A DNA stretch of 64,000 nucleotides, from positions 186,001-250,000 of the forward strand of contig NZ_WQPK01000045.1 in assembly GCF_018785265.1 (NCBI RefSeq), in the 5' to 3' direction. Source of the stretch: Collinsella aerofaciens. Lineage in GTDB: Bacteria > Actinomycetota > Coriobacteriia > Coriobacteriales > Coriobacteriaceae. Within the stretch, counting starts at the first letter, position 1. The number at the start of each line of letters is the position of its first letter. The notes beneath the pieces were generated by a model that did no database searches, had not been told where the DNA came from, and worked only from the letters and a program-made list of their open reading frames with translations. The position numbers were made by a program, and so were the translations under genes. Of the stretch, positions 6,603 to 21,302 are shown in pieces.

Positions 6603-6705
6603 TGAATCGTCAAGGGCTGTCCCCAACGGCCGGCCCAAAAGGAACGTCCCCAAGTGCCGGCAGCCGGGGACGTTCCTTATGTGTCGGCACCCAGGGACAC
6701 CCCTT
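6603..6705. repeat. GGGGACGTTCCTT hairpin element
   Basis: After gltD the sequence has a perfect 13-bp inverted repeat, AAGGAACGTCCCC at 6639-6651 and its complement at 6666-6678, with a 14-nt loop. It is flanked by further TGTCCCC and AGTGCCGG words. Very similar wording recurs at 21250-21300, so this is a dispersed element rather than a simple terminator, although it may stop transcription after gltD. The rest of the gap to 7001 (about 300 nt) holds no gene that I can support. CTCAAA/TTTGAG pairs just before the next gene. Confidence 0.75.
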
Positions 6706-7001
6706 GCGGGTTTGCGACCGATTTGTTCGTTTGTCGACGCGCGAGTGTCCATTCGGCGTCTTTTTGAGCTGTGGTCACCTGTTGTTTCTGTGGTGGCTGT
6801 GGGCATATGGCTCAAAAGGGCGGGTTGGCCGTCTATGTTTACCTGCGGTTTTATTACGGTGCGCATTTTCGGTCAAGCATCCCGTCAAGTGTTTGGTCAG
6901 CAGTTGGTTTGCAGCCGGAGGCCTATTTTGTCCGTGCTGACAGTGGCTGCCCACCCTCCTCGTAAGCTCAAATTGAGGTTCATCAGTTTGAGGAGGATGC
7001 C

Positions 7002-7746: not shown

Positions 7747-7884
7747 GTCTCAATCTGTAACATCTAGCCGTCAAAACACGGTCTAACTGTTACAGATTGA
7801 GATATAGACCGACGGGGTTGAAAGAATGTCTTGATCTGTAACGGTAAGGGACCCAAAGCCCCCGTACCTGTTGCAGATCGAGAT
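7747..7884. repeat. 57-bp palindrome family, locus B (2 units)
   Basis: Units lie at 7747-7803 and 7828-7884, exactly 81 bp apart start to start, with a 24-nt spacer. The first has A:T at arm position 6 where other copies have G:C. The second keeps pairing by wobble (CTGTAACG against TGTTGCAG) and extends it into the centre, where GGTAAGGG faces CCCGTACC. This pair fills most of the 327-nt gap between the unknown gene and the amidohydrolase. Nothing else is seen there. Confidence 0.9.
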
Positions 7885-9972: not shown

Positions 9973-10027
9973 GCAAATTGCCTTTCGTTCGATATGCTGC
10001 ACGCCTTTATACCCGATTTAGAGCAAG

Positions 10028-10115
10028 GGGGACAGGTTAATCTGCACCAAGGTGATGCAAACGTGCCTGTCCCCGGAACACCAAGACGGTGCAAAGAAGT
10101 TTGTCCCCAATGCCC
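10028..10115. repeat. GGGGACAGG/CCTGTCCCC hairpin element
   Basis: GGGGACAGG at 10028-10036 pairs with its complement at 10066-10074. The interior contains GTTAATCTGCACCAA, a word that recurs at 21202-21216. Further TTTGTCCCC wording runs to 10115. The element lies in the gap between csoR and the zinc-ribbon gene. Confidence 0.75.
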
Positions 10116-10118
10116 CAA

Positions 10119-10391: not shown

Positions 10392-10434
10392 GGCGGGTCC
10401 TCGTTTCTGGTCGATCTTCCGGATGCCCCCGTCA

Positions 10435-10499
10435 GTTGCGGTGAAATACGGACTGTTTAAAGGCCTAGGGCGGCTCAACAGTCCGTATTTCACCGCAAC
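10435..10499. repeat. perfect 23-bp hairpin between copZ and csoR
   Basis: Twenty-three bases at 10435-10457 are repeated exactly in inverse at 10477-10499, around a 19-nt loop. The arms begin GTTGCGGTGAAATACGG. No T-run follows in either direction, so this looks like a dispersed palindromic element more than a terminator. A related GCGGTG-edged hairpin lies at 52342-52398. It could lower csoR expression relative to copA and copZ. Confidence 0.85.
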
Positions 10500-10526
10500 T
10501 TCTGAGGATTGAGTAGGCGGCGTCTG

Positions 10527-10895: not shown

Positions 10896-13238
10896 CTATT
10901 TTGCCACTTTGGGCTTAAAGGATTTCAGGCGCAGCGCGTTGCTTACGACGCATACGCTCGACAGGCTCATGGCTGCGGCGCCGAACATCGGCGAGAGTTG
11001 CCAGCCGGTGAGCGGGAAGAACACGCCCGCCGCCAGCGGAATGCCGATGCCGTTGTAGAACAGTGCCCAGAACAGGTCCTGCTTGATGTTGCGGATCGTG
11101 GCGCGCGAAAGCTCGATGGCGCGGGCGACGTCCATAAGGTCGCTGCGCATGAGTACCACATCTGCCCCTTCTTTGGCGATGTCGGCACCGGTGCCGATCG
11201 CAAGGCCCACGTCGGCGCGCGCCAGAGCGGGGGAGTCATTGATGCCGTCGCCCACCATGGCGACCTTGCCGCCCGCATCCTGCAGTTCGCGCACGTGGCG
11301 CTCCTTGTCGGCGGGCAGCACGTCCGCGATGACCTGCTCGCGGCTCAGCCCCACGCGGCGGGCGATGGCCTCGGCCGTCACGCGGTTGTCGCCGGTGAGC
11401 ATGCGCACGTCGACGCCGAGCTTGCGGAGCGCGGCGATGGCCTCGGCGCTCGTCTCTTTGACCTCATCAGCCACGGCGATGGTACCGACAAGCTCGCTGT
11501 TCTTGGCAAAGAACAGCGGCGTTTTGCCCTCGGCGGCGAACTGTTCGGCAAGGCCGGCGGGAACCTTCGCGCCTAGCTCGTTCATCAGGTGCACGTTACC
11601 GGCGGCGATGACATTCTGCCCCTCGCGCGCCGTAACGCCTCGTCCGGGCACGGCGGCAAAGTCCTCGACCATGCGCGCGACGATCCCGCGTGTCTCGCAC
11701 TCGGCCATAATCGCCTCGGCCAGCGGGTGCTCGCTTGAGCGCTCCAGCGCAGCGGCCAGCTTGAGCAGCGCCTTTTCGCTCATGGCGGGCGATCCGTCAG
11801 CGCGCGTGGCTACCACGATATCGGTCACGGCAGGCTTGCCGCGGGTGACCGTGCCCGTCTTGTCGAGCACCACGGTGCCCACGCTGCGCAGGTTCTCCAG
11901 CGCCTCGGCGCTCTTAAACAGAATGCCCATCTCGGCGCCCTTGCCGGTGCCGACCATAATGGCGACGGGCGTGGCCAGGCCCAGCGCGCACGGGCAGCTG
12001 ATCACCAGCACGGCGACGGCGGAGGTAAGCGCTTCGTTGATACTTCCAGTCAAAACCATCCATGCCACAAAAGTCACGGCCGAGATCGCAAACACCACGG
12101 GAACAAACACACCGGCGACCTTGTCGGCCATGCGGGCGATGGGCGCCTTGGTGGCGTTGGCATCCTCGACGAGCTGGATAATCTTGGCGAGCGACGTGTC
12201 GGCGCCCACACGCGTGGCGCGGAAGGTAAACGAGCCCGTGCGGTTGACCGTGGCCGCGTTGACAGTGTCGCCGGCGGTCTTCTCCACGGGAATGGATTCG
12301 CCGGTGAGCGCGCTCTCGTCCACAGCCGAGCTGCCCTCGAGCACCACGCCGTCAACGGGGATGGACTCTCCGGGGCGCACGCGCAGGACCTGGCCGGGAA
12401 GGATACTGTCGACGTCGACGGTGGCCTCGCTGCCGTCCTCTGCCACGACGGTCGCGGTCTTGGGTGCCAGGTCGATCAGCGCCTCGATGGCGCCGCCGGT
12501 CTTGGATTTGCTGCGTGTCTCGAGATATTTGCCCACGGTGACGAGCGACAGGATCGTGCCGGCGCTCTCAAAATACAGGTTGTCCATGCTCGTCATCATT
12601 GCCTCGTGCACCTGCCCGGCGGCCAGCTGGTCGGCCATGATGAACATGGCGTAGAGCGACCAGGCGATGGAGGCGGTGGCGCCCACGGCAATAAGGGCGT
12701 CCATGGTAGGCGCGCCGTGCGCGAGCGACTTGAAGCCGTTGATAAAGTACGCGTCGTTGACATAGACGATGGGGATGAGCAAGACGAGCTCGGTGAGCGC
12801 GAGCGTCATGCTGTGGGTGTGGTCGGTGAAGACGCCGGGCAGTGGCCAACCGAGCATGTGCCCCATGCCTATGTAGAACAGCGGGATGAGGAAGATGATC
12901 GAGATGATGAGGCGGGTGCGCATGGCGGAGGCAGTGGCCTCCAGCTTTTTGGTCGGCGACTCCATATGGGCGGCGCCGGACCTGGCTTGCGCGCTGCCGT
13001 TTGAGCCGGCGGCGCCGGTGCCCTCATCGACGGGCGAGGCCGAGTAACCCGCACGGTCGACGGCGGTGCAGATATCGTCGGGGGAGACTTGCACGGGGTC
13101 ATAGTCCACCATCATGGAACCGGCGAGCAGATTGACCGCGACGCTTTGGACGCCGTCGAGTTTGCTCACGGCGCGATCCACATGCGCCTGGCAAGCGGCG
13201 CATGTCATGCCGCCCACGTCGAACTTATCTTGAGCCAT
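10896..13238 (-). CDS. copA: Cu(I)-exporting P1B-type ATPase
   Basis: The 780-residue product pumps Cu(I) out of the cell at the cost of ATP. The N-terminal HMA domain has GMTCAAC (Cys13, Cys16). Eight membrane helices are expected. The ion-pathway motif is Cys415-Pro416-Cys417 in [12 protein letters not shown], the phosphorylated aspartate is Asp459 in DKTGT, and [11 protein letters not shown] marks the hinge of the P-domain. The length is normal for a single-HMA CopA. The ATG follows AAAGGAG. A CsoR-like operator lies about 60 nt upstream, and copZ and csoR follow on the same strand. Confidence 0.97.
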
Positions 13239-13391: not shown

Positions 13392-13690
13392 GTCTCAATC
13401 TGTAACAACTAGACCCGTTTTTGTCGAGTAACTGTTACAGATCGAGACAAACCATTAGAGGGCAACCCGAACATCTCGATCTGTAACAGTAAGACCGATA
13501 ATTGGGCCCTAGTTGTTACAGATCGAGACAGAGCGTCTGTGGTCAACTCAAATGTCTCGATTTGTAACATCTAGAGAGGTTTTTGACCCCTTACTGTTAC
13601 AGATTGAGATGTTGTCTCGCGGGGTTGGGGTTTGTCTCGTTTTGTAACATCTAGACCTGCATCTGCCGAGCTAGTGTTACAGAACGAGAC
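13392..13690. repeat. 57-bp palindrome family, locus C (4 units)
   Basis: Four units lie at 13392-13448, 13473-13529, 13554-13610 and 13634-13690, with start-to-start distances of 81, 81 and 80 bp. Arms are close to GTCTCGATCTGTAACA, and centres are all 25 nt and all different. The fourth unit has T:A instead of A:T at arm position 7, a compensatory change. The second unit reads GTAAG...CTAGT in its centre, the inverse of the ACTAG...GTAAC type seen in the first, so the units may alternate in orientation. The array fills the 493-nt gap between the 3' end of the kinase gene and the copA promoter. No cas gene or other coding feature is near. Confidence 0.93.
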
Positions 13691-17129: not shown

Positions 17130-17267
17130 GTCTTGTTCTATAACAATTAGGAGCGATTTTACTCGGTAACTGTTACAGATTGAGACGCTCGTGAACCGTG
17201 TCGACCGTTTGTCTCGATCTGTAACACGTAGAGGAAGATTTGCCCTGTAGATGTTACAGATTGAGAC
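17130..17267. repeat. 57-bp palindrome family, locus D (2 units)
   Basis: Units lie at 17130-17186 and 17211-17267, 81 bp apart, spacer 24 nt. The first is the most decayed of all ten copies (several mismatches, left arm GTCTTGTTCTATAACA). The second is near consensus. They lie in the 588-nt divergent gap between the FHA gene and the helicase gene. Other parts of that gap hold only a possible promoter. Confidence 0.88.
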
Positions 17268-21171: not shown

Positions 21172-21184
21172 CGCATACGAAATT

Positions 21185-21302
21185 GGTGCAATGGGACCAG
21201 GTTAATCTGCACCAACCTGGTGCAAACAAACCTGTCCCCAATGCACCAGAGTGAGGAGTGTCCCCGAGTGCCGGCAGAAAAGGAACGTCCCTAAGTACCG
21301 CA
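21185..21302. repeat. composite GGGACAGG and GGAACGTCCC hairpin element
   Basis: GGTGCAATGGGACCAGG (from 21185) faces CCTGTCCCCAATGCACC (to 21247). Inside is a perfect TGCACCA/TGGTGCA stem and the word GTTAATCTGCACCAA, shared with 10028-10074. From 21255 on comes AGTGCCGGCAGAAAAGGAAC, as in the element at 6603-6705. So two subfamilies are joined here. It lies in the 343-nt gap after the EFR1 gene. Confidence 0.75.

Follow-up and report, generated by a model that had tools for sequence, protein, structure and literature searches.

A four-unit palindrome array lies upstream of copA

In the window, the 64,000-nucleotide stretch of Collinsella DNA analysed here, a gene for a copA-type heavy-metal P-type ATPase (annotated in an orthologous record) occupies positions 10896–13238 on the minus strand. 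An array of four 57-bp palindromes, to which no strand is assigned, comes to within about 150 bp of the copA start on the upstream side, beside the promoter as a preliminary description of this sequence had placed it, and a palindromic CsoR-like site (ATACCCCCTGGGGGTGT) lies between the array and that start. The units occupy 13392–13448, 13473–13529, 13554–13610 and 13634–13690, separated by 24, 24 and 23 nt exactly as first described; unit 1 consists of a 16-bp half-site, a 25-nt directional interior with a central TTTTT and the inverted half-site. Three two-unit arrays of the same, likewise unstranded, family lie at 82–218 (gltB upstream region), 7747–7884 and 17130–17267, and one unstranded palindrome at 10433–10501 represents a second dispersed family, whose members have a constant length of 67 bp. 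The preliminary description held that the copA locus alone has four units, which is true of the window and untrue genome-wide, since locus L157 carries a further four-unit array.

The palindromes form a geometrically rigid family in the C. aerofaciens group

The source genome (G000, 2.25 Mb) carries approximately 21 arrays comprising 53 units. Across 45 genomes of the genus, carriers were 24 species of the gut Collinsella aerofaciens group, with 26–68 units each, while the 21 other Collinsella genomes and 22 genomes from five further genera of the family contained 0 or 1 unit. A backwards version of the search pattern, used as a control for chance, gave 0 matches in every genome, and the named public records with this palindrome belong to C. 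aerofaciens and close relatives. In the G002 chromosome, two regions have no arrays: one at approximately 468–1050 kb, the other running from 2050 kb through the start of the record up to 364 kb. A phage or plasmid origin was rejected: there was no phage match, and the sole match in a plasmid collection was a Collinsella record of 899,693 bp that had been submitted as a plasmid. One of two IMG/VR matches is Collinsella DNA with L159 flanks and the other is probably a chance match. The plasmid-collection record (NZ_OY725717.1, plasmid 6 by its label) appears to be a chromosomal contig of Collinsella.

Each unit has a core of 55 bp, or 57 bp counting the next base pair, and the core length was exact in 398 of 425 scanned units. 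Paired half-sites, each the 16-bp sequence RTCTCRATCTGTAACA, start exactly 40 bp apart in 791 of 801 cases. A conserved TA lies 2 nt inward of the half-site, three A/T positions mark the centre and a further A/T lies 3 nt outside, such that the half-site plus its conserved edges spans approximately 24 bp. Within arrays, start-to-start spacing was 80 or 81 bp in 231 of 240 cases; as the inner gap is 25 nt and the outer gap 23–24 nt, half-sites alternate in orientation every 40 bp or so. Arrays contain 1–8 units, most commonly 2 or 3. Lone half-sites are rare and seemingly truncated, suggesting that the palindrome is the unit.

The centre of a unit reads AAA or TTT, and its interior is the opposite of palindromic: position 27 pairs with its mirror position in 15% of units, whereas 47% would be expected (z −13). 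Units therefore have a direction, as the preliminary description had suggested. Two further suggestions did not generalize. Among 149 distinct arrays, central tracts of neighbouring units shared an orientation in 131 cases and opposed each other in 87, which argues against alternating centres as a rule and lends no support to head-to-tail insertion; the CTAG and GTAA words in neighbouring centres alternated in 7 cases and agreed in 3, too few to count. The arrays resemble CRISPR loci in combining evenly spaced repeats with spacers that are constant in length and dissimilar in sequence, but differ in that the repeats alternate in orientation, have variable interiors and occur mostly as 2–4 units at about 20 loci. 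None of the 30 array-neighbouring proteins scanned belonged to a cas-like family.

Unit number and interiors probably turn over through exchange between arrays

At the copA locus, relatives with approximately 90% identical flanks carry from 1 to 6 units, varying between species, so that the constant four copies named in the preliminary description as evidence against its reading were not found. The array region at other loci measures about 66, 146, 227 or 308 bp, corresponding to 1–4 units, and unit number shifts in whole 80-bp steps. At L159, seven carriers have no array at all; where the array is present, a terminator-like hairpin stands on either side of it, and where it is absent there is one hairpin. 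Hairpins containing the words CCTGTCCCC and GGGGACAGG (for example, CCACCGCAAAGG..CCTTTGCGGTGG) are very abundant and REP- or terminator-like; they occur at 6613–6706, 10018–10117 and 21183–21300 of the window and in the right flank of L159, and flank the L159 array.

Ten pairs of interiors were shared between arrays at 20 of 25 positions or better, against 0.19 pairs by chance, while the spacers beside them were mostly unlike. Some contracted arrays have chimaeric centres. Because distant loci have interiors but mostly not spacers in common, and units are gained or lost in 80-bp steps, these data argue for exchange between arrays. Tandem duplication of adjacent units was rejected, with likeness being 0.482 for neighbours and 0.489 for units from different arrays. 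At L166 (2093–4183), two arrays lie between tandemly duplicated genes for proteins of about 234 aa and unknown function, array and gene having duplicated together. A decayed array copy, probably transferred, adjoins insertion-sequence-like DNA at 1500–1630 of L033 in G030, whose species lacks the system.

A nuclease-like gene is bracketed by the palindromes

In five relatives, the array found at 7747–7884 of the window, where the gene is absent, is replaced by a 1.1-kb gene between two arrays. Its product, P0001, has 364 aa. Close orthologues (84% or more) were found in 21 genomes, every one a carrier (21 of 24), and in none of the 21 non-carrier genomes of the genus; the genus also has many other clade-specific genes, and co-distribution was checked for individual candidate genes. 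Palindrome units lie 2–3 nt upstream and 12–48 nt downstream of P0001 in 21 of 21 orthologues, two contig ends excepted. The neighbouring genes encode an uncharacterized 235-aa protein without a Pfam match and an amidohydrolase. Two other candidate partners were rejected: RAYT, since Y1_Tnp genes are present whether or not a genome carries the repeats (39 of 45 genomes), and P0002, a tyrosine-recombinase-like gene beside the L157 array, which is patchy and probably a phage remnant.

Purifying selection (dN/dS 0.137) and the invariance of acidic residues indicate that P0001 is a functional gene; E238, D272, E286, D288 and K292 are unchanged in all 21 sequences. Its predicted structure (pLDDT 85.8) was compared with known structures using VIA-align. 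One part aligned with the AbiEi-like structure 6y8q (Z 8.8, 178 residues, r.m.s.d. 6.6) and with Rv2827c (1zel, Z 5.3), another with the Vsr/I-Bth0305I-like structures 3r3p (Z 9.4, 89 residues, r.m.s.d. 2.4) and 1cw0 (Z 8.6). A PADLOC match to AbiEi was weak (E 0.015), and Foldseek against the PDB returned nothing at E below 0.01; the fold assignment thus draws on VIA-align and weak family matches. With moderate confidence, P0001 is predicted to combine an AbiEi-like DNA-binding part with a Vsr/I-Bth0305I-like nuclease domain, in which both the catalytic-domain fold and conserved acidic residues recall Vsr-like nucleases.

Bracketing extends across the AbiEi-nuclease gene family

Relatives of P0001 (28–44% identical) are distributed across Collinsella, some of them in species that lack the repeat of the four-unit array. 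A 12-mer word occurring at least twice on both sides was found for 28 of 43 relatives and 7 of 232 control genes, and inverted pairs matching in geometry on both sides for 21 of 43 and 6 of 232; the control genes that scored included L056, itself a P0001 relative, and L080 and L102, which lie between second-family palindromes. Using blastn in direct orientation, we found a matching pair bracketing 32 of the 46 family genes (P0001 included) and none around the other 14, against 4 of 235 controls, or 3 of 234 after removal of a Tsukamurella homologue. The pairs were mostly 50–143 bp long and 70–94% identical. The bracketing elements measured are mostly palindromes with arms of about 24–32 bp, whose sequence differs between subfamilies. 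Of the two Tsukamurella homologues, one is flanked by a 117-bp pair, extending the bracketing rule beyond Collinsella. A matching repeat of 42–52 bp also brackets a gene for a 399-aa AAA+-like ATPase (L123, 2850–4047; L150, 2796–3993).

One such element has itself become dispersed. The palindrome bracketing a P0001 relative of 336–344 aa is the second family represented at 10433–10501; it is scattered through the same 24 genomes almost exclusively (2 matches in G014), with its best matches adjoining its gene; of 27 copies, 26 are exactly 67 bp long. Counts for this family are lower bounds. In the source genome, the cognate AbiEi-nuclease gene sits elsewhere (L249), bracketed by the same palindrome.

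Constraint and genomic context discriminate between alternative roles

At conserved positions, half-sites diverged by 1.1% and spacers by 12.0% across 215 orthologous array pairs, half-sites thus evolving about 11-fold more slowly; in the same pairs, divergence was 12.2% for the remaining interior, 5.2% for the centre and 6.0% for the outer A/T positions. The proposal that the units contain protein-binding half-sites fits this pattern. P0001 is missing from G000, G001 and G004 and broken in G025, and the half-sites of these genomes are no less intact than those of the others (exact share 0.57–0.69, against 0.42–0.81), with no relaxation seen. In a one-locus tree the three absences are separate and recent, and G000 apparently lost P0001 recently. 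The retention of good half-sites without the gene is the main doubt about the link between P0001 and the palindromes, for which recent loss is one, unproven, explanation.

That retention would be expected if the palindromes were instead chromosome-structure sites resembling bacterial interspersed mosaic elements (BIMEs), bound by another architectural or regulatory host protein, with the nuclease gene a passenger inserted in an existing array. The genomic context also suits this reading: as with many BIMEs, all arrays are intergenic (0 of 126 within genes) and convergent gaps are enriched (51 of 138 array-bearing against 51 of 273 array-free gaps, p = 1e-4, counting orthologous loci separately). 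Arrays of extragenic repeats with alternating orientation and regular spacing are a BIME-like trait, but the unit size, the rigid period and the bracketed nuclease-like gene are not. Insertion of a passenger does not predict that relatives of P0001 are bracketed by different palindromes of their own, and we regard this alternative as unlikely.

The palindromes could alternatively serve as operators for a transcriptional regulon that has copA among its targets, a role compatible with constrained half-sites of two-fold symmetry and with an array just upstream of the copA promoter region. We find this improbable, as promoter-less convergent contexts are over-represented, the genes adjoining arrays are functionally diverse with no function in common, and the unit number at copA itself is so variable. 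Given the convergent enrichment and diverse neighbours, copA regulation, which the preliminary description had raised, is improbable as the general function of the arrays.

Interspersed copies of variable number, interiors copied between loci and the seven carriers with an empty L159 site are also what a short non-autonomous transposon might leave behind as remnants that no longer have a function. Yet the half-site consensus has been kept in 24 species while spacers drifted, the spacing is fixed, and the transferred array in G030 has visibly decayed; together with the lack of any observed transposon with these ends, this makes inert remnants highly improbable. Finally, an identity as RNA hairpins, terminators or processing signals is extremely improbable, for although units fold as RNA 5–7 s.d. 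better than their own shuffles (z −5.4 to −7.5) and occur preferentially in convergent gaps, their arms lack covariation (mirror positions pair no more than independence predicts, the interior less), sense-strand AC mismatches are as frequent as GU (111 and 107), the central tract is unoriented to transcription and no Rfam match exceeded threshold. Constrained without hairpin covariation or strand bias, the half-sites look like duplex DNA bound by a protein.

Discussion

We consider it probable that the array upstream of copA is a cluster of binding sites for an AbiEi-like/nuclease protein of the P0001 type, with copies exchanged between arrays. Half-site constraint, rigid geometry, co-distribution, bracketing, predicted fold and the generality of bracketing across the family all support such a protein as the binder. 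Each palindrome would present two inverted half-sites of about 24 bp (16 nearly invariant bp, the TA and flanking A/T), and because 2–4 palindromes follow one another at a fixed period of 80/81 bp, P0001 molecules bound to them may form a regular alternating lattice. Copies would turn over through array-to-array exchange. The nuclease domain might introduce breaks within or next to palindromes, and their repair from other arrays might drive both exchange and spread, possibly with some benefit to the host, in a manner resembling the presumed role of RAYT for REPINs.

In REPIN-RAYT systems, REP doublets are accompanied by REP-associated tyrosine transposases (PMC3116915, PMC2817692). The Collinsella palindromes resemble them as dispersed extragenic palindromic doublets in ordered clusters, with the doublet as the copied unit, and as sequence-specific families that each sit beside one dedicated chromosomal gene; an inverted doublet that is both dispersed and bracketing that gene, as for every P0001 orthologue apart from the contig ends noted above, is a likeness in the sense of functional analogy only. 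In contrast, the bracketed gene encodes an AbiEi-like/Vsr-like protein and not a Y1 transposase, the half-site has neither an internal palindrome or hairpin nor a GTAG-type head, and the arrays have an exact period with unlike spacers where the tandem repeats of ordered REPIN clusters are nearly identical.

Precedents exist for the two predicted parts of P0001. Inverted 23-bp repeats arranged in tandem are the binding sites of AbiEi proteins, with two copies in S. agalactiae and four in the case of Rv2827c (PMC7319586). P0001, with a moderately supported predicted AbiEi-like fold, adjoins tandem inverted repeats of about 23–24 bp, but differs from AbiE systems in its nuclease-like domain, in the lack of an adjacent AbiEii nucleotidyltransferase toxin, and in having repeats also downstream of the gene and at approximately 20 other loci. 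With Vsr-like homing endonucleases (I-Bth0305I, EDxHD family), it shares a similar predicted catalytic domain and a gene located inside its putative target; unlike them, it lacks an intron or intein, would have many genomic targets and is chromosomal rather than phage-borne.

A gene-plus-palindrome partnership like REPIN-RAYT, built on an unrelated protein, is the simplest account of these observations, which point to an undescribed repeat-plus-nuclease system; the literature searched, covering few subscription journals, contained no earlier description. We give about even chances to a broader proposal, that many members of a large actinobacterial AbiEi-nuclease family each own private bracketing palindromes, which in some lineages have multiplied into dozens of constrained sites, an analogue of REPIN-RAYT that would be widespread in actinobacteria and derived from a DNA-binding protein of the antitoxin type plus a nuclease of the repair or homing type, and in which the palindromes would serve as binding and cutting sites for exchange and spread.

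Many bacterial genomes carry interspersed palindromes with no known owner. A search rule, to look for AbiEi-nuclease genes that have one and the same palindrome on both sides, links two dispersed families to candidate genes and predicts more, in Collinsella and in at least one distant actinobacterium, while a mostly unannotated family of AbiEi-nuclease proteins gains a testable substrate. If this interpretation is correct, the kind of partnership between gene and repeat seen in REPIN-RAYT would have arisen a second time, and independently, in the system to which the Collinsella arrays belong.
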